Assembly (NCBI GenBank): GCA_030680605.1
Contig: JAUXUQ010000019.1
Location: forward strand, 1 to 64,000
Direction: 5' to 3'
From: Gammaproteobacteria bacterium
Lineage (GTDB): Bacteria; Pseudomonadota; Gammaproteobacteria; SURF-13
DNA: 64,000 bases
Shown: piece by piece, positions 29,522-48,022 of the stretch
Position numbering within the stretch: position 1 is the first letter of the stretch
How the letters are laid out: each line of letters starts with the position of its first letter
The notes under the pieces: model-generated
What the model saw: only the letters and a program-made list of their open reading frames with translations
Databases searched by the model: none
Told to the model about the DNA's origin: nothing
Made by a program: the position numbers and the translations under genes

Positions 29522-31756
29522 TTACTCGGTTTGCGGGCCAAGCACGCGTAATATTTCGTCCACTGTGGTCAGTCCCTGCCGTACCTTGGCGTGGGCATCA
29601 TCAATCAGCGTGGTGGTGCCAAGCTGCCGCGCCATGCGGGTGAGGTCAAGAATACTGGCGCCGGAGGCGATCATGTGACGCAGCTCGGCATTGGGTGTGA
29701 GTACCTCGTACAGTGCCAGTCGCCCACGGTAGCCAGTTTGATTGCACTGGGCGCATCCGATGCCGCCTTGAAACACAAGCCCGGATGCCGTAAACGCAGG
29801 GCCGAGTTGTGCCAGCAGTTCGGAAGCCGGGGATGTGCGTTCGCGACAGGTGGTGCAAATCCTGCGCACCAGGCGCTGCGCGATAATGCCCTCCAGTGCC
29901 GTGGCGATCACGTATGGCTTGAGTCCGAGATCGAACAGGCGCGCAATGGTCGCAATGGCGGAGTTGGTGTGCAGGGTGGAGTACACCAGATGTCCGGTGA
30001 GCGCGGCATGGAATGCAACTTCGGCAGTGTCGAAGTCGCGGATCTCGCCGATAAGGATCACGTCCGGATCCTGGCGCAGGATGGCGCGCAACACGCTGGG
30101 AAAATTGAGTCCGATCTTTTCGCGCACCAGCACCTGGCCAGCGATGTCGAGATAGTATTCCACCGGGTCTTCGATGGTGACGTAATTCTTGGTGGCGGTG
30201 GCGTTGTGCTGCAACAGCGAATACAGCGTGGTGGTCTTGCCACTGCCGGTGGGGCCGGTGGCGAGGATAATGCCTTGTGGCTTGGCGACCATGTTCACTA
30301 GTCTGGCAAGGTCAGGCGACGAGAACCCCAGGTCGTGTATGGTGTGTATCGCGGAGTTTCGGTCCAGGATACGCATCACGATCTTTTCGCCATTTATGGT
30401 AGGCAGGCTGGAGATGCGCAGATCGACCACGCGCAGCGGGGTCTTGACCGTGATACGTCCGTCCTGTGGCCGCCGCCGCTCGGTAATATCCATTTCCGCC
30501 ATGACTTTGATGCGTGATATCAGAGACATGTGCAAGTGATGCGGGATATGTATCTTGTCAGCCAGAACGCCATCGATGCGGTAACGCACGACTACGCTCT
30601 TTGTGCGCGGGTGGATGTGAATGTCGCTTGCGCCCAGCCGGATGGCTTCGATGATGATGGAGTTGACAAGCCGGATGGCAGGAGGCTCTTCGGTCTCGCG
30701 TAGCAGTTCCTCCAGTGAGCGATCATCCTCCTCCTCGATGACGATCTCTATGCCTTCATACGGATCAACCGTGGAGACCAGGGTTTCCAGTTCCTCGAAT
30801 GAGGGAGACCGCTCACCGTAAACGGCAGCGATCTTGGCCTTGATGGCGGCCACATCTGCCATGACCACTTGTATCTCCAGGCCCGAGACAAAGCGCAAGT
30901 CGTCGATGAGGCCCGTGTCCATGGGGTCGGCCATGGCCAGCAGCAGACGACGTCCTTCCGACTTTAGCGGCAGCACCCACTGGCGTTCGCAGAAACTGCG
31001 CGGCACCAGTGCGGCGACGGCAGGGTCAATCTGGATTTCAGGCAGGGCGACTTCATCTACCAGCAGTTCCTTGCGTAGAATATCGCGCAGGGTCTTTTCA
31101 TTTACCCAGTCGCGCTCGATCAGCAGGCGGATGACGGGGTCTTTTCTGGTTTGCTGTAGTTTGTGCAGCTCTTGCACCTGCTTGCTGTTGAGCAGGTTAC
31201 GTTTGTGCAGCATGACGGCAAGCTGGCTACGGTTGGTGACGGCAAATTTGTTGAGTGCCACGATCTCCTGGGTCTTTTTCTTGTTTTCATTTTTCAGTGC
31301 GCGATTTTTTTCGAGCAGATCGTGCTGTTCCAGCGCGAGTGCAACGGTGATTCGCAGATCGTCATCATTCCATGGCTTCAGTATGAATTTGTATACGGCG
31401 CCGTCATTGACAGCGCCCATTACAGCACTGGTATCGGCGTGGCCAGTTAGCATGATGCGTATCATGTCCGGCTGTATGGTCTTGGCCCTTTTCAACAGTT
31501 CCGCACCATTCATGCCCGACATCATGTGATCGGATACCATAAGGTGGAACTTTTCTTTGCCCAGTAACCGCAAGGCTTCCTGACCATTGGTGGCGGTATC
31601 AATTATGTAGTTTTCCTGACGGAAAACGCGTTGCAGGGCCTTGAGTACATTGCTGTCATCGTCTACCAGCAGCAGGCGATAGACGCAACTCACCGGTTCG
31701 GTGAGACTTGCTGCCTCGGGTGTGACGCCAGTAAACAGGGATGCGTAGTGTGTCAT
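29522..31756 (-). CDS. Receiver-fused PilB/GspE-type ATPase
   Basis: A protein of 744 residues joining two modules. Residues about 25-145 form a response-regulator receiver domain with phospho-acceptor Asp76 (VSDHMMSGMNG) and KPW near 128. After a coiled linker (150-175), residues about 175-315 resemble the MshEN/GspE N-terminal domain. A full secretion-type ATPase follows: Walker A GPTGSGKT at 501-508, Walker B region DPDVILIGEIRD at 563-574, and a zinc tetra-cysteine (Cys634, Cys637, Cys668, Cys671). Such ATPases assemble type IV pili or type II secretion pseudopili, but no pilus genes lie nearby. The RLG residues that bind cyclic di-GMP in MshE are not clearly kept. It is the last gene of the signalling operon. 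Confidence 0.9.
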   Translation of the reverse strand: MTHYASLFTGVTPEAASLTEPVSCVYRLLLVDDDSNVLKALQRVFRQENYIIDTATNGQEALRLLGKEKFHLMVSDHMMSGMNGAELLKRAKTIQPDMIRIMLTGHADTSAVMGAVNDGAVYKFILKPWNDDDLRITVALALEQHDLLEKNRALKNENKKKTQEIVALNKFAVTNRSQLAVMLHKRNLLNSKQVQELHKLQQTRKDPVIRLLIERDWVNEKTLRDILRKELLVDEVALPEIQIDPAVAALVPRSFCERQWVLPLKSEGRRLLLAMADPMDTGLIDDLRFVSGLEIQVVMADVAAIKAKIAAVYGERSPSFEELETLVSTVDPYEGIEIVIEEEDDRSLEELLRETEEPPAIRLVNSIIIEAIRLGASDIHIHPRTKSVVVRYRIDGVLADKIHIPHHLHMSLISRIKVMAEMDITERRRPQDGRITVKTPLRVVDLRISSLPTINGEKIVMRILDRNSAIHTIHDLGFSSPDLARLVNMVAKPQGIILATGPTGSGKTTTLYSLLQHNATATKNYVTIEDPVEYYLDIAGQVLVREKIGLNFPSVLRAILRQDPDVILIGEIRDFDTAEVAFHAALTGHLVYSTLHTNSAIATIARLFDLGLKPYVIATALEGIIAQRLVRRICTTCRERTSPASELLAQLGPAFTASGLVFQGGIGCAQCNQTGYRGRLALYEVLTPNAELRHMIASGASILDLTRMARQLGTTTLIDDAHAKVRQGLTTVDEILRVLGPQTE

Positions 31757-31758
31757 GA

Positions 31759-33000
31759 TCAGGGATGTACGGCTTTTTCAAGGGGCAGATAGATGCTGAA
31801 TGTGCTGCCTGTGTCTACTTCACTCTTTACCTCAATGTGTCCGCCATGGGCCTGGATAATGTCATGGCTTACGCTCAGGCCGAGACCGGTGCCCTGGCCT
31901 ACATCCTTGGTGGTGAAGAAGGGTTCGAAAATGCGGGGTAGCAGATGCTGAGGTATGCCGCAGCCATCGTCACTGATGCGGATACATATCTCGCCGGCAA
32001 GCAGTTCTGTTTGTACATGAATGTGGCCAAAAGAAGTCATGGCCTGGCTGGCATTGAGCAGTATATTGACCAGCACCTGACCAAGCTGGCCAGGATGGCA
32101 CCATACCAGGGGAATATCCTGAAAAGTGCTGCTGAGTGAGGCACGCGCCTGCAGGGTGTTTCTTACCACGTTACAAACCTGGGATATTTTCTGGTTGATA
32201 TCCGTAAGTTCCTCTTCGGTTCGGTCAATATTTGAGAAACCCTTGAGGTCTGCCACGATACGCATGATACGCCCTGCCCCCTCCGCGCTTTCCTCCAGCA
32301 GTGCCTTGAAGTCCTCCAGCATCAGAGTGATGTCCTGTTGTGCGAAAATCGCCGCTGCGCGTTCGGTGTTCTGCGCATTGCGTATAAGGCTAGTGGCTGC
32401 CACCAGTTTGTGAACATACGAGCGGGCGGTGTTGAGGTTGCTGGTGATGAAGCCGATAGGGTTGTTGATTTCATGCGCAACACCAGCGGCGAGCTGGCCG
32501 ATAGAGGCAAGCTTTTCACTCTGGTACAGATGGCGTTGCGCTGTGTTAATCGTCTGCACCTGCTGCGTCACGCGTTGCTCCAGATTTTCCGCCAACGCCT
32601 TGTAGCGCGCCTCTGATTCCGCCAGTGCGGCATGTTCACATTGCAGCTTCTCGTAGTCAGCGTGTACTGCTTCGAGATGAAGGGCTGAGGCCATGTGGTA
32701 GCGGCGTGCGCTCTCAAGCAGTAACTCGATAAGTGCCGTTGCCGCCTGCAGACGTGCCACTTCCTGTGTCGGGGCTTCCAGATAACCCAGCGCTTCCATA
32801 TCGCCCTGTATGACCTGTCGCGTACACTGTGTCGGCACCCTGTCTTTACCCAGCACGGTACAATTGTGCATATCCGTGATATGTACTTCCACGCCCAGCA
32901 GTGCGCGCAGACATTCCAGCAGGCGTTTACCATCTATGCCAGCAAGCTGTTCACGCAGGCCGAGCTCACGATCAAATCGGGGGAGCGGTTCGGTGTTCAC
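31759..33000 (-). CDS. Soluble histidine kinase
   Basis: A sensor kinase of 413 residues without membrane segments. Residues 1-105 form an unrecognised, possibly GAF-like, input region with several cysteines and histidines (VEVHITDMHNCTVL). A coiled coil (about 115-160) leads to the phosphorylation site His176 in AAGVAHEINNPIGF. The ATP-binding domain has NILLNASQAM, SDDGCGIP and GQGTGLGLSVSHDIIQAHGG. It overlaps the GTPase gene upstream by four bases and ends two bases before the ATPase gene, so GTPase, kinase and ATPase are tightly coupled. Confidence 0.9.
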   Translation of the reverse strand: MNTEPLPRFDRELGLREQLAGIDGKRLLECLRALLGVEVHITDMHNCTVLGKDRVPTQCTRQVIQGDMEALGYLEAPTQEVARLQAATALIELLLESARRYHMASALHLEAVHADYEKLQCEHAALAESEARYKALAENLEQRVTQQVQTINTAQRHLYQSEKLASIGQLAAGVAHEINNPIGFITSNLNTARSYVHKLVAATSLIRNAQNTERAAAIFAQQDITLMLEDFKALLEESAEGAGRIMRIVADLKGFSNIDRTEEELTDINQKISQVCNVVRNTLQARASLSSTFQDIPLVWCHPGQLGQVLVNILLNASQAMTSFGHIHVQTELLAGEICIRISDDGCGIPQHLLPRIFEPFFTTKDVGQGTGLGLSVSHDIIQAHGGHIEVKSEVDTGSTFSIYLPLEKAVHP

Positions 33001-33665
33001 GCGTGCATACGCTCTGCTGCTCCACCCAGCGTGGTGGCGACAAAGGTCGCTTGGTCAAGGCCGTGTCTGGCATGCAGTTCGTACTCATACTCGATGGCCG
33101 CATATACCTGCGATAGCAGGACTGTGAAGGTTTCACATACGCCATGGCCGGTGAGTGCGCTGCTGTATGTAAGTGGCCAGGGTGTGGTCTGCCAGCGCTG
33201 GCGAATTTCGCCCTCACTCAGAATATCTGGCAGGTCGCGTTTGTTAAACTGCACGACGAGCGGGAGCTTGTCGAAGTTGAGTCCGACACGGTGAACGTTC
33301 TGCGCCAGATTGTCGAAAGACTCGCCATTATTTATGCTTTGCGAGCGCTGCGAGTCGGCGACAAATACCACGCCGTCGGCACGCGACAGCACCGCTTTAC
33401 GTGTGCCATCGTGCGCTATCTGGCCGGGCACTGTGAACAGCTTGAGTTTGATCAGCAGCCCGGAGGGTGTGTGAAATCCCAGCGGCAACAGATCGAAGAA
33501 CAATGTACGGTCGTTGCTCGTTTCAAGCGTCATGATGTTGCCTGTATGCTCTGGGCGCAGCAGATCATGCAGTCTCATGAGATTGGTGGTCTTGCCGCTC
33601 TGTGCTGGCCCGTAGTAAACCAGCTTGAGTGTCAGCTTGTTTCCCGATGCATCGAAGTCCGCCAT
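32997..33665 (-). CDS. MglA-like small GTPase
   Basis: A Ras-like GTPase of 222 residues resembling MglA of Myxococcus, which sets cell polarity for type IV pili and gliding. G1 is GPAQSGKTTN (19-28), the switch region includes DRTLFFDLLPLGF, G3 is TVPGQ (78-82) and G4 is NKRD (141-144); FVADSQ follows the MglA pattern. It is about 25 residues longer than typical MglA. No MglB-type GTPase-activating (roadblock) protein is visible in the block. Location next to a PilB-like ATPase fits a polarity or pilus-control role, but that is inference. Confidence 0.9.
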   Translation of the reverse strand: MADFDASGNKLTLKLVYYGPAQSGKTTNLMRLHDLLRPEHTGNIMTLETSNDRTLFFDLLPLGFHTPSGLLIKLKLFTVPGQIAHDGTRKAVLSRADGVVFVADSQRSQSINNGESFDNLAQNVHRVGLNFDKLPLVVQFNKRDLPDILSEGEIRQRWQTTPWPLTYSSALTGHGVCETFTVLLSQVYAAIEYEYELHARHGLDQATFVATTLGGAAERMHA

Positions 33666-33674
33666 GACATCCGC

Positions 33675-34187
33675 CTAGGTGTCTTCCGCGTCCAGCAGGA
33701 TGGAACCGTCATCGTCCAGTTTTACCCGTGTAATACCGGCATGCTCCGCTTCAAGACGTTCCAGCTCCAGACGCTGGGCGCGCACCTGGTCAGCAAGGCG
33801 GCGGTTCTCCATCAGTACGCCATGGTGCATGAGTGCATGCGCTACCGTTGTGCGTAGTTCGTAGTCGTGCCAGGGCTTGGTGACAAAGCGAAAGATATGG
33901 GCTTCGTTGATGGCGCCAAGCAGCGCATCCATGTCGGTATAGGCGCTCAGCACCATGCGCAGGGTGTCAGGCTGCAGCTGATGCAGTGTAGTGAGAAAGA
34001 ACACGCCATCCATGCCCGGCATGCGGTAGTCCGAGATGGCGAGATCGAACTCGCCGCCCGCCTTGATGCGCTTTAGTGCCTCGGTGCCGCTGTTGAAGGT
34101 TTCAATGTGATAATTGTCCTGGGCCAGCACACGCTTCACGGCGCGCAGCACATTTTCATCGTCATCGACCAGCATGATACGTTGCAC
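33675..34187 (-). CDS. Response regulator with a short C-terminal helix
   Basis: A protein of 170 residues with one receiver domain (1-120). The acidic pair DDD at 8-10, phospho-acceptor Asp53 (ISDYRMPGMDG) and a KPW motif are all present. The remaining 50 residues form a charged coiled helix (NRRLADQVRAQRLELERLEA) and a short acidic tail, with no known output domain. It probably acts by protein contact, for instance with the GTPase encoded nine bases downstream. Its receiver resembles those of the ATPase, HD-GYP and GGDEF-EAL proteins in the block. Confidence 0.9.
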   Translation of the reverse strand: MQRIMLVDDDENVLRAVKRVLAQDNYHIETFNSGTEALKRIKAGGEFDLAISDYRMPGMDGVFFLTTLHQLQPDTLRMVLSAYTDMDALLGAINEAHIFRFVTKPWHDYELRTTVAHALMHHGVLMENRRLADQVRAQRLELERLEAEHAGITRVKLDDDGSILLDAEDT

Positions 34188-34232: not shown

Positions 34233-35540
34233 TCAGGCGGATTGTATGTAAATCGTGTGTCTGTGGCCTTCCTCTTTTTCAAAGGCGATCACCTTGTGGA
34301 TCACGACGGCATTGAGTGTGCGCCCTTTGGAGAGCAGCATAAGACCGCCTTTGCTGACGAGGTCGCGCGATAGCACCATGCCCTCGTGCAAATCATCAGA
34401 AGAAAGGCGTAGCTCTGAGATATCGGCGTTGTCCGTGGTGTCAATAACATGCAGGAAGGTGTCTACAATTTTCGCATCATAGCGTTGGTTGCGATTGGCA
34501 ATAAGAAACGAGCAAGCCTCCTGTGCGCTCATTTTCCCATGCAGCAGTTTACCGGCCTGTAGTGCGTCATAGTCGCTGGCCACTGCCAGGATGCGTGCGC
34601 CAAGCGGGATACGCTCGCCTGAAAGCTTGTCGGGGTAGCCCTTGCCGTCGAAACGCTCATGGTGGCTGCGAATGTACTCCGATGCCTTATGCAGCGTATC
34701 CAGGCTGAGCAGAATAGCCTGTCCGGTTGCGGGGTGTTTCTCAAAGCCTGCACGCTCATTCTCTGAGAGATCGATGTAGGACTTGTTGAGTACGTTATCC
34801 GGCAACCCGATTTTTCCAATATCATGCAGTAGTGCGGAGTAGTGGATATCCTGTACATCACCCTCGGATAGCCCGAGTTTCGTGGCGATGGCCTGTGCGT
34901 GCTCCGCAACACGGCGTGTATGGCCGGTTTCGGTGCCCTCACGTAACCCAATCAGATGCGAGAACACCGAGATGGTGGTGTCGTAGGCCTGCTTTAGCTG
35001 CTGATAGGCCAGATCCAGCATGTCTGCGGTTTGCTGTATTTCCTGTGTTCTTGACGCCACTTTCCTTTCCAGGCTTGTATTTAATTCCTTGAGCTGTTCA
35101 TTTTGCTGGAGAACCTTGGATTCCAGGCGCTTCTTTTCCCGCTCCAGATCCTTCTTCTCCAGGGCCTGTTTGACGCACAGGAGGATGTCGGTGTCTTCCC
35201 ATGGCTTGGGGATGTAGCGATAGATGCTGCCCTTGTTGATGGCATTGATGGTGGAGCTGATGTCAGCGTAACCGGTGAGCAGGATGCGTATGGTGTCAGG
35301 CCAGGATTTTGTTACCTGCTCCAGAAATTCGGCTCCATCCATGCCGGGCATACGCATATCGGAGATCACGAGGTCTATATGCTCGTGGGCGAAAACCTCC
35401 AGCGCCTTGTTGCCGCTTTCAGCCGTAAGGATGCGGTAGCCGGCGGGCCGGAACAGTCGTTGCAGTGACGACAGGATATTGGCCTCATCGTCGACGAACA
35501 TGATGGTGGCGGAGGGGACGGTTTCAGGGTTGGCACTCAT
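34233..35540 (-). CDS. Response regulator with HD-GYP phosphodiesterase domain
   Basis: A protein of 435 residues. The receiver domain (about 10-130, Asp61 in ISDMRMPGMDG, KPW) is followed by a coiled coil and an HD-GYP domain. The HD-GYP signature is intact, with ALLHDIGKIGLPD and HHERFDGKGYP, so cyclic di-GMP hydrolysis is expected. About 65 C-terminal residues form a further small domain (DDLHEGMVLSRDLV). The start at 35540 (MSANPETVPSATIMFVDDE) has AAAGG upstream; a longer in-frame reading would run far into the upstream kinase gene and is rejected. It is related to RpfG-type regulators. Confidence 0.92.
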   Translation of the reverse strand: MSANPETVPSATIMFVDDEANILSSLQRLFRPAGYRILTAESGNKALEVFAHEHIDLVISDMRMPGMDGAEFLEQVTKSWPDTIRILLTGYADISSTINAINKGSIYRYIPKPWEDTDILLCVKQALEKKDLEREKKRLESKVLQQNEQLKELNTSLERKVASRTQEIQQTADMLDLAYQQLKQAYDTTISVFSHLIGLREGTETGHTRRVAEHAQAIATKLGLSEGDVQDIHYSALLHDIGKIGLPDNVLNKSYIDLSENERAGFEKHPATGQAILLSLDTLHKASEYIRSHHERFDGKGYPDKLSGERIPLGARILAVASDYDALQAGKLLHGKMSAQEACSFLIANRNQRYDAKIVDTFLHVIDTTDNADISELRLSSDDLHEGMVLSRDLVSKGGLMLLSKGRTLNAVVIHKVIAFEKEEGHRHTIYIQSA

Positions 35541-35550
35541 GACATTACCT

Positions 35551-36885
35551 TTAGGCTTGTGCGACGAGTTTGTGGTCTTGGCTTTGCTGTATCGGGAGCC
35601 ACACTGTAAAGCATGTGCCTTTTCCGGGCTGGCTTGCCACGTCAATCTTACCGCCATGTTTGCTGATAATGCTGTAGGCAAGAGACAGTCCGAGCCCGGT
35701 ACCCTTGCCCACCGGCTTGGTGGTGAAGAATGGATCGAAGATGCGCGGCAGGTTTTCGGGTGCAATACCCTTGCCGGTATCTGTGACGGATACCCATGCC
35801 TGCTCATCCTGGAAACCAGTCTTGAGTGTGATTGTGCCCCGTTCTTCGATGGCATGCGCCGCATTGACCAGCAGGTTCATGAATACCTGGTTGATCTGTG
35901 ATGCCACACACTCAACCAGCGGCACTTCGCCATACTCCTTGATGACATCGGCCTTATATTTAACTTCATTGTTGACGATATTGAGCGTGCTGTTAAGCCC
36001 CTTGTGCAGATCGGCGAATAGCCACTCGGCGCTGTTCACATGCGAGAAGTCCTTGAGATCCTGCACAATGTGTTTTACGCGTGTGATGCCTTCCTTGCAC
36101 TCGCGCATCAGGTTCAAGGTATCTTCGCGCACAAACGTAAGGTCTACCTTGGCTTTGAGCGTTGTGATCGCGGCAAGCATCTGGGCAGCATCAGGCTGGG
36201 TGGCCAGTAGGGGTTCAGCTTTCTCATAGGCGCTAAGCACGCTGAGAATATCCTGCACATAGTTCTGCATGCTGCCCAGGTTCGAATAGACATAGCCGAT
36301 TGGGTTGTTTATCTCATGCGCTACGCCAGCCGCGAGCTGACCGATGGAGGCCATCTTCTCTGACTGCAGAAGCTGGCTGTGTGCTTCTTCAAGTTGATGA
36401 TTTATTTTTTGCATCTTTGCATTGATGGCGGACAGCTCTCTAATGCGCTGCTGCTGATATTCATGCAGACTGGCCTCTGACTCGGCAAGCTTCTTGCGAG
36501 TGTTGATCTGAACGAAGATGCGCTCGACCGCCAGCGGCAAATAGCTGATCGACTCAACCGATTTTATGATGAAGTCACTTACCCCTGAGCGCAATGCAGC
36601 TATCACGGTGCTATCGTCACTCATGCCGGTAGCCATGATGATGGGCAGGTCGTAACCGTTGGCTTTTAGTTGTGCCATGAACGCGAGGCCGGTAATGCCA
36701 GCGGGCAGTATGTAATCCAGTACAACTACATCAATGCCGTCCTGCTGAATGATGCCTAGTGCCTCAGCGGCGGTTACGGCATTAAAGACCTTGTAGCCGG
36801 ACTTCTCCAGGGCGCGGCGCTCCAGTGTGGCGATTCCGAGATCGTCTTCAACGATGAGTACTGTTCCGCGTGTTGTCTCTGTCAT
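35551..36885 (-). CDS. Hybrid receiver-histidine kinase
   Basis: A soluble protein of 444 residues with an N-terminal receiver (about 1-125, Asp57 in VVLDYILPAG) and a histidine kinase. A long coil (130-175) precedes the phosphorylation site His190 in AAGVAHEINNPIGY. The catalytic domain contains NLLVNAAHAI, DTGKGIAP and GKGTGLGLSLAYSIISKHGG. Receiver-first kinases of this kind accept phosphate from one kinase and control another step. The kinase core is closely similar to that of the 31759-33000 protein, suggesting duplication within the block. Confidence 0.92.
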   Translation of the reverse strand: MTETTRGTVLIVEDDLGIATLERRALEKSGYKVFNAVTAAEALGIIQQDGIDVVVLDYILPAGITGLAFMAQLKANGYDLPIIMATGMSDDSTVIAALRSGVSDFIIKSVESISYLPLAVERIFVQINTRKKLAESEASLHEYQQQRIRELSAINAKMQKINHQLEEAHSQLLQSEKMASIGQLAAGVAHEINNPIGYVYSNLGSMQNYVQDILSVLSAYEKAEPLLATQPDAAQMLAAITTLKAKVDLTFVREDTLNLMRECKEGITRVKHIVQDLKDFSHVNSAEWLFADLHKGLNSTLNIVNNEVKYKADVIKEYGEVPLVECVASQINQVFMNLLVNAAHAIEERGTITLKTGFQDEQAWVSVTDTGKGIAPENLPRIFDPFFTTKPVGKGTGLGLSLAYSIISKHGGKIDVASQPGKGTCFTVWLPIQQSQDHKLVAQA

Positions 36886-36911: not shown

Positions 36912-37379
36912 TTACGCCGCAGGTTGTTCTATAGGGATGCGTTCATTGGGCACGACGGCTATTTGCAGGAACATGCCGAGACGACGCACGACGTCGCAGA
37001 AAACTTCGTACTCCACCGGTTTGGTAATATAGATGCCACAACCCAGCTCATAGCAGTTAGCTACCTCGCGTGGATCATCTGTAGTAGTGAGCATCACGGT
37101 GGGGATGGTTCTGGTGCGTTCATCCGATTTGAGCTGGCGCAAGACCTCGACCCCGCCCATGCGTGGCATGTTGATATCGAGCAACATCACCAGCGGGTGA
37201 TCGTGCGCGCGCCCGGTATAGGCGTTGGTGGAGTGCACATAGTCGAGGGCCTCCTGGCCATCCTTGACCCAGACTATGTCGTTGACGACCCCGGCTCGGC
37301 GCAGATTGCGCTGCACCAGCGTGGCATGGCCCTCGTCATCTTCGGCCAGTAATATGGTGGCAGGTGCAGTATTTATCAT
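36912..37379 (-). CDS. Stand-alone response regulator (Rcp1-like)
   Basis: A single receiver domain of 155 residues. It has LLAEDDEGHATLVQRNLRR, Asp68 in LLDINMPRMGG, and TKP near residue 120. The insertion after the second strand (YTGRAHDHP) and the N-terminus match the Rcp1 type that partners phytochrome-like or PAS-containing kinases. It lies 25 bases after the PAS kinase gene, its likely partner. It has no output domain. Confidence 0.91.
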   Translation of the reverse strand: MINTAPATILLAEDDEGHATLVQRNLRRAGVVNDIVWVKDGQEALDYVHSTNAYTGRAHDHPLVMLLDINMPRMGGVEVLRQLKSDERTRTIPTVMLTTTDDPREVANCYELGCGIYITKPVEYEVFCDVVRRLGMFLQIAVVPNERIPIEQPAA

Positions 37380-37404: not shown

Positions 37405-39534
37405 CTATGCGGCTGCTTCTGTATCCATGGTGTTGACAGGTAGGCTGATGAAGAATGTGGTGCCTTCACCTTCGCATGATTGCACCCATATTTTTCCACC
37501 GTGGCGTTCTACCATGCGACGTACGATGGAAAGCCCGACGCCTTCACCTTTTGCCTTGTCGGGATGGAAGCGCTGGAATATCTGGAACAGCTTGCCTTGG
37601 GCTGCTACGCTCATGCCAAGGCCGTTATCACGGACATAATAAGTGCGCAGGGTAGCGTTGACGCTGTTCTCCGGGATCCAGCCTATTTCGATGAGGCCCG
37701 GTCGGTTCGGGTCGAGATAGTTGAGGGCATTGCCAAGCAGGTTGGCGAATATCTGCTCGATGGCGGTGGCATCACCCCAGAGCGGTGGCAGATCAGTTGT
37801 GGTGAAAGTTGCTCCGCGCTCCTGGGCTATGGACTGCATGGAATCAGTGATGCGCTGGATGACGCTACCCATTTTTACACCAGTCCAGTGATACTCCACC
37901 TGGCCGGCACGAGAGAGCCGCAACAAGGCATCAATGATATTAGACAGGCGCATGACGCCTGCCCGGATGAAATTGATCGAGTCCTGCATGTCGCTGTCTA
38001 ACAATGCCAGGCCGCGTTTGCGGATATCCTCCGGGATGTTGTCGCTGGCCATCAGCAGGCGTAAATCCTGGGACACAATGGTAAGCTCGTTGCTGAAGCC
38101 CTGCAGGTTGACGAGTGGTGAGCGTAAATCATGCGAGACGCTGTAAACCAGCATGTTATTCTCTTCATCACGTTGCTGGAGCTGGTCGAGATAGAGTTCT
38201 GCCTGCGCGTTGGTGGCTTCCAGGTCGGCGGTACGAACGCGCACGCGCTCTTCCAGTTCATCGTTGTTGCGGCGGAGCTCCTCTTCGGTTTCCTTTTGCC
38301 GCGTGATGTCGGTGCGGATTGAAACGTATCGGGAAGGCCTGCCCGTATGATCCATGAAGGGTACGATTGTTGTTGCTACCCAGTAGAAGGAGCCGTCTCT
38401 CTTGCGGTTCCTGACGTGTCCCTGCCACACCTTGCCGCTGGAAATGGTCTTCCAAAGATCGGCGAAAAAGTCCTTTGTGTGCAGGCCGGAATTTACGATT
38501 CTGTGGTTTGCCCCCAACAGGTCTTGTTCTGAATACTGACTGATCTCGCGGAATTTTTCATTCGCATAAATAATGTTACCGTTGGCATCGGTTATGCTGA
38601 CAATGGCATGGTGATCCAGCGCGGCCTTCTGGAACTCAAGGTCCCTGTAGGTTTCCTCCAGCGTACGTGAACTTTGCCTGAGCCGGAAAAGAATATAACC
38701 GACGTAGACGAGCAGAAGAATGGAACTTACATAAAGCAGCAGGCGATATACTGCGGCTTCTTTCTCGGCGACGTCATAGTAAGCCTGATGGGTGGTGTAA
38801 AGGGCCTGGTAGTGTTTCGCAGTCGGCATCGCAATCATCTCGCGGACGAGATTATCAACCACAGGTTTAAGCTGTATGGCATTGGCCACATACACCAGCG
38901 TCACACGTACCGCCTCGTTTACGGCTGCGGGGTATTGCCCGCGCAGCGCATGCAGGTTTTGAAGTTGTGCCTCCACACGCGGGCGGCCGTGAACCGCGCT
39001 GTCATCTTCGAGATAGAGCAGTGTATCCAGCAGTAAGCCGCTGATTGCGGTCTTGAGCCGGCTGTACTCTGCCTCGTTGAGCAGGCTGTCGAGGTCAGAG
39101 TCACCCTCGACAAAATAGCGCATCGCGCTCTGGAGGTGATCCGCCGCGCTCTGGAGCTGGGTATTCTGCATTTTGAAATGCTCAATGGCGGCCATTTTTT
39201 CGCTGCTGGTTTGGGCGGCGATGTTGAAGGCTTCGTCAGCCGGTTGGCGTTTGTCTGTGGGTATGGCAGACGAGGCTGTTTGCAGTCGCTGGCTGAGTCG
39301 ACGGGTTTTCCTGGTGGTGTCTACCAGAGGGTCGTAGTTATGCAGAAGACCAAGATTGGATTTCAGGATATCTTCATTCAGTCGGGTATCGAGGTACTCG
39401 ATGTTGCGTATCAGAGTGAGTGTATTGTCATGCGCGGCATAATTCACGCCCTGAATCTTGATGAAAAGAAAGGAGAACAGGGCAGCAATAGCTGCCCATA
39501 ACAGTCCCTGCCGGATATGCGCCAGGTTTTTCAT
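37405..39534 (-). CDS. Membrane histidine kinase with periplasmic helical sensor and PAS domain
   Basis: A sensor kinase of 709 residues. Two transmembrane helices (about 10-27 and 266-284) enclose a periplasmic all-helical domain; its NEDILKSNLGLLHNYDPLVD resembles the DAHL-type ligand-binding domain. A PAS domain with PAC tail (about 300-415), a coiled coil and the kinase core follow. The phosphorylation site is His468 in YSVSHDLRSPLVNLQGF, as in phytochrome-like kinases, and the ATP site has DNGLGM and GEGVGLSIVRRMVERHGG. Its start overlaps the stop of the di-haem peroxidase-like gene (ATGA), implying coupled synthesis and perhaps a sensing partnership. Confidence 0.92.
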   Translation of the reverse strand: MKNLAHIRQGLLWAAIAALFSFLFIKIQGVNYAAHDNTLTLIRNIEYLDTRLNEDILKSNLGLLHNYDPLVDTTRKTRRLSQRLQTASSAIPTDKRQPADEAFNIAAQTSSEKMAAIEHFKMQNTQLQSAADHLQSAMRYFVEGDSDLDSLLNEAEYSRLKTAISGLLLDTLLYLEDDSAVHGRPRVEAQLQNLHALRGQYPAAVNEAVRVTLVYVANAIQLKPVVDNLVREMIAMPTAKHYQALYTTHQAYYDVAEKEAAVYRLLLYVSSILLLVYVGYILFRLRQSSRTLEETYRDLEFQKAALDHHAIVSITDANGNIIYANEKFREISQYSEQDLLGANHRIVNSGLHTKDFFADLWKTISSGKVWQGHVRNRKRDGSFYWVATTIVPFMDHTGRPSRYVSIRTDITRQKETEEELRRNNDELEERVRVRTADLEATNAQAELYLDQLQQRDEENNMLVYSVSHDLRSPLVNLQGFSNELTIVSQDLRLLMASDNIPEDIRKRGLALLDSDMQDSINFIRAGVMRLSNIIDALLRLSRAGQVEYHWTGVKMGSVIQRITDSMQSIAQERGATFTTTDLPPLWGDATAIEQIFANLLGNALNYLDPNRPGLIEIGWIPENSVNATLRTYYVRDNGLGMSVAAQGKLFQIFQRFHPDKAKGEGVGLSIVRRMVERHGGKIWVQSCEGEGTTFFISLPVNTMDTEAAA

Positions 39535-40583
39535 AGCAGTGGTTTACCGTTGTACTCGCCGGGCAGGGTGTATAGGAATTTAATGAGCAGGCTCATGTCA
39601 CCAGGTGTAATTTCGCGCCCCAGTTGATATTTCCCCATGATGTCTATGGCTTCCTCCAGGGTCGCGGCCGAGCCGTCGTGCAGATAAGGTGGGGTCAGAA
39701 CGGCGAGACGCAGGCTGGGTACGCGAAAGGTGTGCCGGTCACGTTCATCGCCTGTGACATTGAATCGACCAAGATCGACTTTGCTGCCATTGCCGCGATC
39801 AGAAAAATAGTCGGCAGTGATGCCAAAGGTCTGGTACATGTTGCCGCCGACGTTCTTGCCTTGATGACAGGCGGCGCAGCCGTAGCTCTTGAACAGGGCA
39901 TAGCCTGCCTTCTCTTCTTCCGTGATGGCCTGCTGGTCACCACGCAGGTATTTATCGAAACGGGAGTTGGGCGTGATCAGGGAGCGTTCGTAGGTGGCGA
40001 TGGCATCCTTGATGGTGTGACTCTGAATGCCGTCAGGGTAGAGTTTATTGAACTGCTGGACATAACGGGCATCCTGTCGCAGTTTATTTATGATGTCAGG
40101 CCAATTTGAGCCCATTTCCGCCGGGTGGTGGACGGGCCCCTCCACCTGGTCTTCCAGGGTTTCTGCACGCCCATCCCAGAACTGCCTGAAATTAAGCCCG
40201 CTGTTGAAGACGGTGGGAGAGTTGACGTTGCCGAGCGCGCCACTGTTGCCGAGGGAGTATACGCGCTGGTCGGTACCGCCCATGCTGAGGACATGGCAGG
40301 TTGCGCAGGAAACGGTATTGTCATGCGACAGCCTGGGATCGTTAAATAAGGCCTCTCCCAGGCTGATTTTATTTTCATCCAGACGGTAACCTACCGGGAT
40401 GGGCCAGATCGGTTCCTGCTCGTTATGGCCCGTGTCGGCATGGATATAAGCATCGTCATCTGTGGGGTTAAGCAGGGCGTCTGTTGTCTGCCCGGTTGTC
40501 AGATAGACAAACAGCAGCCATGCCATTATCCCCAGCAGTATTGTTGCGGCGCTCGCTATTCCGTACGTGGAATTTTTATTCAT
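39531..40583 (-). CDS. Di-haem cytochrome c peroxidase-like protein (MauG/CcpA family)
   Basis: A protein of 350 residues with an N-terminal membrane anchor (about 8-29) and two c-type haem sites, CATCH at 93-97 and CAACH at 236-240. LGEALFNDPRLSHDNTVSC, FWDGRAETLEDQ and LTPPYLHDGSAATLEEAI are typical of bacterial di-haem peroxidases. Members reduce hydrogen peroxide in the periplasm or oxidise protein side chains. An upstream GTG at 40616 is an alternative start; the ATG at 40583 gives a better N-terminus but has no strong ribosome-binding site. It is the first gene after the sigma-28-like promoter. Confidence 0.9.
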   Translation of the reverse strand: MNKNSTYGIASAATILLGIMAWLLFVYLTTGQTTDALLNPTDDDAYIHADTGHNEQEPIWPIPVGYRLDENKISLGEALFNDPRLSHDNTVSCATCHVLSMGGTDQRVYSLGNSGALGNVNSPTVFNSGLNFRQFWDGRAETLEDQVEGPVHHPAEMGSNWPDIINKLRQDARYVQQFNKLYPDGIQSHTIKDAIATYERSLITPNSRFDKYLRGDQQAITEEEKAGYALFKSYGCAACHQGKNVGGNMYQTFGITADYFSDRGNGSKVDLGRFNVTGDERDRHTFRVPSLRLAVLTPPYLHDGSAATLEEAIDIMGKYQLGREITPGDMSLLIKFLYTLPGEYNGKPLL

Positions 40584-40758
40584 GACTACACTCGGTGTAT
40601 CTAACCTCAGCGTCACCTTAAGGACCAGCAGGCTGAAATGCGGCGCGACCGTGTACGACGCAACCTTCGGCTCCCGAAGGTTGCGCCATGTCAGCCTTGC
40701 CCGATCCGTTGGGGCAGGCGCCTCTGTGCCATGTATTTAAAGATGGCTGGCATACCAG
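40584..40758 (-). other. Structured leader of the signalling operon
   Basis: The presumed transcript leader contains a perfect 12-base hairpin CGCAACCTTCGG-CTC-CCGAAGGTTGCG (40659-40685). A second hairpin lies around TGCCC ... GGGCA (40699-40716). A nine-base pair GCAGGCGCC (40714-40722) and GGCGCCTGC (40786-40794) spans the promoter itself. No T-run follows, so it is not a classical terminator. It matched no riboswitch class I could recall. Confidence 0.45.
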
Positions 40759-40785
40759 TTAGCGACACCGGGAGGGGAAACTTTA
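40759..40785 (-). promoter_or_regulatory. Sigma-28 (FliA)-type promoter of the signalling operon
   Basis: On the minus strand TAAAGTTT (40785-40778), an 11-base spacer and GTCGCTAA (40766-40759). The flagellar sigma-28 consensus is TAAAGTTT-N11-GCCGATAA, so the -35 matches 8 of 8, the spacer is exact, and the -10 matches 6 of 8. It would start transcription near 40750, about 170 bases before the peroxidase-like gene. Confidence 0.6.
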
Positions 40786-41029
40786 GGCGCCTGCATGTGT
40801 CTCACAAGCTATTGGATTTAAATGTGATAATTTAATTCCGGGGGGCTGTGGTGGGTTTTTGCAGGTGGTGAGTTGAGGGCGATGGAGGAGATAACAGGGT
40901 ATTCCAGCCGCTGAGGCAGGGCACTTCGCCCCTGAGTGGAGGAGGCCTGAAATGGGATGAAACAGGTCTACTTAAGGGGCACTGGCGGCCCAATTGGGTG
41001 CCTCTCCAGCCTGTCTGCAGGCCCTCTAT
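40786..41029. other. Gap upstream of the sigma-28-like promoter
   Basis: About 240 bases between the end of the GGDEF-EAL gene and the promoter. No gene is supported. An AT-rich patch lies at 40805-40836, just upstream of the promoter. No clear terminator for the GGDEF-EAL gene was found. Confidence 0.5.
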
Positions 41030-42832
41030 TTAAGAGCCCAGCGGCCGTGACAAGCGTCGCCCTTCGCGCAACAGGTGTGCAACGTCTGCCGCCGGCATGG
41101 GCTGGCAGAACAAAAAGCCCTGCATTTCATCACACTTCAGCTCCTGCAGGAATCTGAGTTGTTCCAGTGTTTCCACGCCCTCGGCAATGACGTTCAGCTT
41201 CAGGCTGTGTGCCAGGGCAATAATAGCTGAAACTATTGCCGCATCCTCCGGGTTAATCGAAAGGTCGCTTACGAATGTGCGATCGATCTTCAGGCCAAAT
41301 AATGGGAAGCGCTTGAGGTAGGTCAAGCTGGAATAGCCGGTGCCGAAATCATCAATTGAAACCTTTACTCTCATGGCGCGCAACTGGTGCAGCGTCTTGA
41401 TGGTTTCTTCCACATTGTCGACAAGCAGGCTCTCGGTAAGCTCCATCTCCAAACCCTCCCAGCTTGGATCAAGGCCGGTCTCCTGCAAAATGCGGGTGAT
41501 GGTTGCAGCAAAATCAGGTTGCCGGAACTGTAACGCCGAGAGATTGACCGAAACCCGGATGGGCGCGAGGCCCTCTGTTTGCCAGGCCTTGTTTTGTGCG
41601 CAGGCGCTGCGTAATACCCATTCCCCCACTGGCACAATCAGTCCGGTTTCCTCCAGCAACGGGATAAACTCTGCCGGTGCCACCAATCCCCGCTCCGGAC
41701 TTTGCCAACGGAGCAAGGCCTCCACGCCAATGATGCCTCCACTTTCCAGATCCAGCTGGGGCTGGTAATAAAGTACGAACTCGTTACGCTCCAGCGCATG
41801 ACGCATACTACTTTCAAGGGTCAGGCGCTGTAACGCTTTGGCGTTCATCTCCTCAGCATAGTATTGATAATTGTTGCGGCCTTGCCGCTTGACGTGATGG
41901 AGTGCGGTATCGGCGTTTTTAACCAGTGTGGCAGAGTCTCCGCCATCCGAAGGGTAAAGGCTGATCCCGATGCTGGCTGAGATAAAGCACTCATTATTGT
42001 CGAGTACAAAAGGATCGGCCAATACATCAAGAATTTTCCGCGCAATGCCGGCGGCATCCTGCGCATTGTCCAGTTCGGACAGGATAAACATGAATTCATC
42101 CCCGCCTGCCCGGGCAAGCGTATCAATCACGCGCACGCAATTTGACAGCCGCTTGGACACCGCCTGCAGCAGCGCATCGCCCTGCGTATGGCCCAGTGAT
42201 TCATTGACGATCTTGAAGCGATCCAGATCGAGCGACATGATTGCTGCCAGCCGTGTATTGCGTTGTGCGTATCCCAGCGCCTGCTGCAATCGGTCGGCGA
42301 ACAACAAACGGTTGGGAAGACCGGTGAGCGCGTCATAGTTGGAGATGTGGGTCATCCGCTGCGTTTTTTCTTCTATGAGTTGTTCCAATTCTTCATTGAT
42401 GCGCGCAAGCTTTATGTTCGCCGTTTGGATTTCCAGCGTCAGTTGTTCCCTCTCTTTCACCAGGGTGTACTGCATGAAGGCCTCATGCACATTGGCGCGC
42501 AGCGTTTCATTGCTCCATGGCTTGGTAAGGAATTTGTAGATGGCGCCCTGGTTGACGGCTGCAGTAACCGAGGCCAGATCGGTATAACCACTCAATACCA
42601 TGCGTATGGTCTCGGGGTACAGATCCTTGACCCGGGTCAATAACTCAACGCCGGTCATCTTCGGCATGCGCTGGTCGGTGAGGATGACGCCGACTGTATG
42701 ATTCGCCAATAGCGCCAGCGCCGAATCACCACTGTTTGCCGTCAGCACTTCGTACCCATCCTGATGCAGCAGGCGCACGAGGGATGCGGTGATGTTTTCC
42801 TCATCATCGACGAGCAGGATTGTTTTATCCAT
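41030..42832 (-). CDS. Response regulator with GGDEF and EAL domains
   Basis: A cyclic di-GMP turnover protein of 600 residues. The receiver (1-125) has Asp53 in LTDQRMPKMTG and KPW near 104. A coil (125-160) leads to a GGDEF domain with intact AGGDEF at 242-247, and to an EAL domain with EALLRW at 371-376 and DDFGTGYSSLTYL. Both catalytic signatures are complete, so it could make or degrade cyclic di-GMP, perhaps depending on phosphorylation. It is upstream of the sigma-28 promoter and probably has its own; the 214-base gap to ribD shows no clear promoter. Confidence 0.92.
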   Translation of the reverse strand: MDKTILLVDDEENITASLVRLLHQDGYEVLTANSGDSALALLANHTVGVILTDQRMPKMTGVELLTRVKDLYPETIRMVLSGYTDLASVTAAVNQGAIYKFLTKPWSNETLRANVHEAFMQYTLVKEREQLTLEIQTANIKLARINEELEQLIEEKTQRMTHISNYDALTGLPNRLLFADRLQQALGYAQRNTRLAAIMSLDLDRFKIVNESLGHTQGDALLQAVSKRLSNCVRVIDTLARAGGDEFMFILSELDNAQDAAGIARKILDVLADPFVLDNNECFISASIGISLYPSDGGDSATLVKNADTALHHVKRQGRNNYQYYAEEMNAKALQRLTLESSMRHALERNEFVLYYQPQLDLESGGIIGVEALLRWQSPERGLVAPAEFIPLLEETGLIVPVGEWVLRSACAQNKAWQTEGLAPIRVSVNLSALQFRQPDFAATITRILQETGLDPSWEGLEMELTESLLVDNVEETIKTLHQLRAMRVKVSIDDFGTGYSSLTYLKRFPLFGLKIDRTFVSDLSINPEDAAIVSAIIALAHSLKLNVIAEGVETLEQLRFLQELKCDEMQGFLFCQPMPAADVAHLLREGRRLSRPLGS

Positions 42833-43046
42833 AGGATGTGTACGGCATGCCCCAATTCATATCAGAGAGCATATTGCATGCCAGTATTTGCGGACAGCTC
42901 TTATTGTCCTGGTGGCAGAGTAGGGTATGGTGGGGCACAGTTGAGTTATGCTCCTGCGGCAACTCTGTGCCCGAAAGGCGTAACCGTACGCAGCGGGGCG
43001 ATTTGACCACCGTTGTGGGGGGGCTCGTGGGTTTGGACGTATTAAG

Positions 43047-46927: not shown

Positions 46928-48022
46928 ATGCTTAACCAGCTCGACGAACCTCCCGGTAGTAGCCTGCTTGACAACCCTCCGCGATGGAGTGAAACGCCTT
47001 TGGCGTCCAGTCCGTCGCTGACACTGCATGTCAACAAGACCTTCCCCAACCGCTATCTTGCCATTGAAGGCCACAGGCTTTACCCCTTCACCATCGACCT
47101 CAAGCCGCTGTTTGAAAGTTACCTCAGCCGCGCCCAGGTCCCGCTCTCCGACTACACCTTTGCCAACAACATCATCTGGCTGTCGCAGAAGAGCGGCTTT
47201 TACCAGGTCATCGACGAGTGTTTTTGCCTGTTCTGTTTGACGGGCGAAGGCCTTACCATGCCACTGCCGCCACTCGGCAGCCCGGACGACCAGCGGGCGG
47301 CGCTCGCGACCTGCTTTGAGATCATGGATGGCTACAACGCCGCTCCTCTGCTCGGCAAGGTCGAATTTGTCTACCGTGATTTTCTCCAGGTTCTGAATCT
47401 GGAACATGAGACCCCGTTCCCGGCAGTTACCCGTGACTGGCTGGTGGAGCGTGCCCTGCCGGACTATGTGTATACCACCTGCGACCTGATTGAACTCAAG
47501 GGCAACGCCTATAAAACCAAGCGCAACGAGATCAACCAGTTTCGGCGCATCTACCCGGATCACCGCATGGAGCCGGTGGGGCCGCAGCACCACGACGGTA
47601 TCCGCGAACTGGTTAACACCTGGCTGCAAGAGCGCATCAAATATCTGCCCGCGCAGGAGATACCCAACTTTCTGTGTACGGCCGAGCTGGAGCGTACCGC
47701 GATCAACCGCGCGCTGGCGCATTATGACTACCTGCAGCTGGATGGTCTCTGTCTTATCATCGGCGACAGGATTGAAGGCTTTACCTTCGGCGAACGCATT
47801 ACTGCCGATGTCGCGAGTGTGGTGGTTGAGAAAACCAATTTCACCATCCAGGGTTCGGCGCAATACCTGTTCCGCGAATTCGTCAAGACCTACCGCGACT
47901 GCATCTTCATTAACGTGGGTGATGACCTGGGCCTGGAGAATCTGCGCAAGGTGAAGATGAGTTACCGCCCGGCCTTGTTCGGTGAAAAATTTACCTTGAG
48001 CCGGTGCAGTGTTCAGGGCTGA
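46928..48022 (+). CDS. DUF2156-like protein (GNAT-fold aminoacyltransferase type)
   Basis: A soluble protein of 364 residues resembling DUF2156, the domain also found at the C-terminus of phosphatidylglycerol lysyltransferase (MprF). Two GNAT-like halves are suggested. The second contains ELKGNAYKTKRNEINQFRR, WLQERIKYLP, GDRIEGFTFGERI and YLFREFV...CIFINVGDDLGLENLRK. There are no membrane helices, unlike MprF. The substrate is unknown. It overlaps the following acetyltransferase gene by 14 bases, so the two are probably co-expressed. Confidence 0.75.
   Translation: MLNQLDEPPGSSLLDNPPRWSETPLASSPSLTLHVNKTFPNRYLAIEGHRLYPFTIDLKPLFESYLSRAQVPLSDYTFANNIIWLSQKSGFYQVIDECFCLFCLTGEGLTMPLPPLGSPDDQRAALATCFEIMDGYNAAPLLGKVEFVYRDFLQVLNLEHETPFPAVTRDWLVERALPDYVYTTCDLIELKGNAYKTKRNEINQFRRIYPDHRMEPVGPQHHDGIRELVNTWLQERIKYLPAQEIPNFLCTAELERTAINRALAHYDYLQLDGLCLIIGDRIEGFTFGERITADVASVVVEKTNFTIQGSAQYLFREFVKTYRDCIFINVGDDLGLENLRKVKMSYRPALFGEKFTLSRCSVQG

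Follow-up and report, generated by a model that had tools for sequence, protein, structure and literature searches.

The nine-gene operon

The DNA analyzed here, a stretch of 64,000 nt referred to below as the window, corresponds to contig C19:1-64000 of the 1.87-Mb genome, 99% complete, of a flagellated gammaproteobacterium. On the minus strand of the window nine tightly packed genes, separated by gaps of -4 to 45 nt, form an operon. The first gene (39531..40583) codes for a protein of the MauG/MbnH-type dihaem cytochrome c peroxidase family; its start at ATG 40583 is backed by the orthologue of the related genome G004 (MNPKVVLP... comparable to MNKNSTYG...). It is followed by the genes for a DAHL-PAS histidine kinase (37405..39534), a stand-alone receiver (REC) protein (36912..37379), a REC-histidine kinase (35551..36885), a REC-HD_5 regulator of the HD-GYP type (34233..35540, likely start ATG 35540), a REC protein with a C-terminal extension (33675..34187), an MglA-type small GTPase (32997..33665), another histidine kinase (31759..33000) and finally a REC-MshEN-T2SSE protein, i.e., a PilB-like extension ATPase with an N-terminal receiver (29522..31756). 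The genes ribE and ribAB begin 26 nt after the last of these genes and may be co-transcribed with them. Upstream of the operon and on the same strand there is a REC-GGDEF-EAL gene (41030..42832), which is 446 nt apart and is not counted as part of the operon.

The closest solved relatives of the GTPase are MglA structures, namely Myxococcus xanthus MglA (6h17, E 1.9e-40) and 3t12 (E 4.9e-38). A gene for MglB is usually, if not universally, coupled to the MglA gene (PMC4316618); we found no roadblock (MglB) Pfam match among the nine operon genes. The second to last protein, the histidine kinase next to the GTPase, starts with a domain of about 110 amino acids (32611-33000) without Pfam match, whose structural model (mean pLDDT 86) has a weak GAF-like resemblance. 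A roadblock/MglB-like fold of this domain is not supported, as Foldseek gave no match with E <=0.001 and listed MglB only at E 1.4. The best solved relatives of the ATPase are PilB proteins (E 7.6e-131), and with its extra N-terminal receiver it reaches 562 bits against the TIGR02538 cut-off of 675.65. A pattern search did not find the strict MshE-type RLG...Q c-di-GMP motif in this protein, and we therefore do not claim that it binds c-di-GMP. Besides this additional ATPase the genome encodes four further T2SSE ATPases, two of them PilT-sized, which would fit a complete type IV pilus system.

A sigma-28-type site upstream of the operon

In the intergenic region, about 175 nt before ATG 40583, lies a predicted sigma-28 (FliA)-type promoter (40759..40785, minus strand) with the -35 box TAAAGTTT (40785-40778), a spacer of exactly 11 nt and the -10 box GTCGCTAA (40766-40759). 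The minus strand from 40785 to 40759 reads TAAAGTTTCCCCTCCCGGTGTCGCTAA, which agrees with the FliA consensus TAAAGTTT-N11-GCCGATAA at 14 of 16 positions; both mismatches fall into the -10 box, where GCCGATAA is replaced by GTCGCTAA (T and C departures). The original prediction of a near-perfect FliA promoter at the start of a nine-gene operon and facing in the right direction is thus borne out in motif, spacer, position and strand. In shuffled versions of the window 0.08 matches are expected at <=3 mismatches and two are observed, the second one (47757-47783, three mismatches) being located within an ORF. A search of 40400-41100 turned up no sigma-70-like site and, on the minus strand, nothing resembling a terminator. 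The palindrome AGGCGCCT occurs on either side of the promoter (40716-40723 and 40785-40792); its three copies in the window correspond to chance level and it was rejected as a conserved operator.

Sigma-28 sites in the genome and their consensus

The original prediction hinged on the presence of fliA in the genome. A full-length FliA is encoded at C7:167663-168319 (E 6.4e-82, 274 bits, above the curated cut-off), and the anti-sigma factor FlgM and RpoN are encoded as well; there are also ten CheW-domain matches. The genome-wide results come from searches by sequence pattern and by family. The genome scan for the same motif, which had been proposed along with the site, returned four sites at <=2 mismatches, upstream of fliC (one mismatch), flgM (two), a two-gene unit encoding an HDOD protein (two) and the operon in the window (two). 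A different, exact pattern recovered the same four sites and one more. Since the reversed pattern, used as control, also gives two matches at the same cut-off, the number of sites alone is not decisive; the persuasive point is rather which genes the four sites precede. The three sites outside the window are all upstream of genes, two of which are core flagellar genes. Strong FliA sites would thus seem to be few in the 1.87-Mb genome, with two of the four ahead of non-flagellar genes. As side observations we note a FliA-like promoter ahead of a unit of two genes, the second coding for the HDOD protein (L006 1501-1527; G000 C2:119133), and a three-mismatch sigma-28-like site, TCAAGTTT-N11-ACCGATGA, a short way upstream of a gene whose product carries the diguanylate-cyclase-associated DGCcoil domain (L013 1501-1527; G000 C19:154401).

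The fliC and flgM promoters of the family follow the patterns TAAAGTTTCC...CCGATAA or TAAAGTTT...GCCGCTA. In its -35 region the window site begins with TAAAGTTTCC like the fliC and flgM promoters of this genome, and its -10 box has the CGCTA variant of flgM. With a scoring matrix built from seven fliC/flgM promoters of the family, the window site being left out, it scores 22.4 bits; the training sites score 24.0-26.7 bits and those flgM sites which carry the CGCTA box, at 24.0-24.2 bits, are near to it. An earlier matrix of nine sites had included a site of genome G002, which was left out of the seven-site matrix because it lies in an apparent inverted repeat without a matching gene. For the window site the matrix P per position is 1.2e-8 at 57% GC and 8.4e-8 at 40% GC, and an order-3 Markov simulation with the nine-site matrix gave P 5e-8 (2 matches in 40 million positions). 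Assuming a promoter space of 1000 units of 300 nt (~300 kb), 0.004-0.025 chance sites are expected among all promoters of the genome.

An alternative is that the sequence is fortuitous, i.e., FliA may bind to it while the operon is driven from elsewhere, either by an unrecognised promoter or by read-through out of the REC-GGDEF-EAL gene, whose RpoN-type promoter would perhaps be the source. Read-through is favoured by the absence of a terminator-like site in 40400-41100, by the RpoN gene in the genome and by an RpoN-like sequence, TGGCATGCNATATGCT, which in both the window (42868-42883, minus strand) and G004 (L045 11159-11174, minus strand) lies some 50 nt ahead of the REC-GGDEF-EAL gene. In G004 another RpoN-like sequence, TGGCATACAACTTGCA, stands immediately before the MauG gene. 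In E. coli, moreover, many sites bound by FliA, mostly intragenic, give no detectable RNA (PMC4183435), and we counted such silent sites against a functional promoter, along with the two mismatches in the -10 box. The small number of chance sites expected, the placement of the three other sites before genes and the gap to the upstream gene all speak against a fortuitous sequence, and we regard this explanation as rather unlikely. A sigma-28 promoter of the nine-gene operon at 40785..40759 is, judged from the sequence, the probable reading.

The predicted leader of the operon

From the position of the -10 box a transcription start at about 40752 is predicted, and the resulting 5' leader of about 168 nt (40584..40752, minus strand) contains a perfect 12-bp hairpin, CGCAACCTTCGG-GAG-CCGAAGGTTGCG (40659..40685). 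The whole leader folds better than shuffled sequences (z -2.4), as does the part 40640-40752 (z -4.1), a stretch picked after the fact. A riboswitch was rejected, since Rfam gave no match with E <=1 and neither 0.87 Mb of loci nor plasmid records contained a relative of the leader. The folding could also mean that a real promoter yields mainly a short structured RNA which ends near the hairpin, so that the operon would not be reached or only conditionally. There is a parallel in E. coli, where two intragenic FliA sites give rise to small RNAs (PMC4183435). However, no T run follows the hairpin, which is therefore no standard terminator on the minus strand, and the searches for Rfam matches and leader relatives, both negative, argue against a short RNA too. 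We hold this possibility to be very improbable; still, the folded leader with its 12-bp hairpin is the chief reason not to take efficient expression of the operon from the sigma-28 promoter for granted.

Conservation among relatives

The other two genomes of the genus have no full-length orthologue of the DAHL kinase. Within the family the operon occurs elsewhere only in G004, in an identical setting (glyA-nrdR-ribD ... ribE-ribAB). This operon (L045) is devoid of the GTPase-HK-REC-PilB part, its GGDEF-EAL gene is broken, and its MauG gene is not preceded by a sigma-28 site, which also fits a fortuitous site in the window. The GTPase-HK-REC-PilB part (29522-33665 in the window) forms a conserved core of three genes in several beta- and gammaproteobacterial groups (L057-L064, L074-L078). 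Among 99 gene-upstream regions the two best-scoring ones head MglA/REC-PilB operons (G307, 15.7 bits; G245, 14.7 bits), with sites of weak to moderate quality. A same-genus relative of G245 has no comparable sigma-28-like site, and the operons of the G252 family (L125-L135) have none except in the genome of L058/L131; in L058 there is one strong sigma-28-like site, whose -35 box overlaps the end (LKF-stop) of an upstream receptor gene. The sites of G307, G245 and L058 can be taken as weak support for a conserved sigma-28 control of this operon type. A control conserved across lineages was rejected, given the overlap in L058 and the lack of a site in G245's relative and in most of the G252-family operons. 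For a single promoter such conservation is auxiliary and not a defining trait. As sigma-28 sites are this patchy, being absent also from the G004 operon, the promoter in the window looks like a local acquisition.

Aside from these operons, G004 has a two-mismatch sigma-28-like site before a cluster of type IV minor-pilin-like genes (L091 1501-1527), possibly a second link between FliA and pili in this family.

A proposed link between flagellar assembly and pilus signalling

FliA is set free when the hook-basal body is finished and FlgM is exported. If the promoter at 40785..40759 works as predicted, FliA-RNA polymerase would, after this export late in flagellar assembly, start at about 40752 and transcribe the nine-gene operon alongside fliC and flgM. 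Judging from the domains, the kinases and receivers would feed the REC-fused PilB-like ATPase next to the MglA-type GTPase. Proteins of the HD-GYP type usually degrade c-di-GMP. Through the products of the operon a pilus ATPase under receiver control would probably be coupled to c-di-GMP, to signals from the environment and to an MglA-type switch. What we show here is the motif, its position and rarity in the genome, the fliA and flgM genes and the anatomy of the operon; we infer promoter activity, timing and pilus output.

The original prediction had assigned the operon to the motility or chemotaxis regulon. FliA control is likely in view of the 14/16 site, of FliA and FlgM and of the consensus shared with fliC and flgM. 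The syntenic operon of G004 and most other such operons are, however, without a (strong) site, and FliA has non-flagellar targets elsewhere; the gene content of the operon speaks for type IV pilus/c-di-GMP signalling more than for classical chemotaxis. Membership in a wider motility regulon is plausible. We read the operon as a FliA-dependent, non-flagellar unit that would join flagellar assembly to type IV pilus and c-di-GMP signalling, so that swimming and a probably pilus-related signalling operon are likely switched on together.

More tentatively, it is conceivable that the flagellar checkpoint sigma factor directly activates an MglA-GTPase/receiver-PilB phosphorelay and that the finished flagellum licenses a second, surface-motility machine. 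If so, swimming and the control of type IV pili would be tied directly at the level of transcription in a gammaproteobacterium, the FliA regulon would gain an unstudied operon type, an MglA-type GTPase with a receiver-fused pilus ATPase, and the timing of FliA release would be a simple handle on when such a system is needed.

Comparison with known systems

The site has the boxes, the 11-nt spacer, the position and the orientation of the class III (late) FliA promoters of fliC and flgM in this genome, in E. coli and in Salmonella. It differs from them in that the operon downstream is non-flagellar, the -10 box has two departures and the leader is long and strongly folded.

FliA is known to drive genes of second-messenger signalling outside the flagellar loci, such as bifA of Pseudomonas putida (PMC5300878) and the GGDEF/EAL gene lpp0952 in Legionella (PMC5655016), which resembles the arrangement predicted here; these are, however, single genes, whereas the sigma-28 site in the window precedes nine genes including an MglA-type GTPase and a REC-PilB. 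The bifA promoter was not found in Pseudomonas aeruginosa (PMC5300878), and as in our case the site thus differs between relatives. It is a precedent that lineage-specific sigma-28 sites can be real.

In Bdellovibrio FliA drives the operon of the Tad (type IVb) pilus; Flp pilin genes are part of it, and reporters were used to test it (PMC5430801). There as in the predicted case the flagellar sigma factor serves a pilus-related operon; the operon described here, known from its sequence, encodes signalling proteins and an ATPase instead. In M. xanthus MglA and SgmX are reported to control type IV pili (PMC7519303, PMC7668184), and an MglA-type GTPase is tied to type IV pilus function there as, by gene content, in our case. 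The difference is that here the GTPase adjoins a histidine kinase and a receiver-fused PilB, with no roadblock Pfam match in the nine proteins. FliA acting on non-flagellar targets is a kind of control already known, and what would be new is its occurrence at this nine-gene operon.
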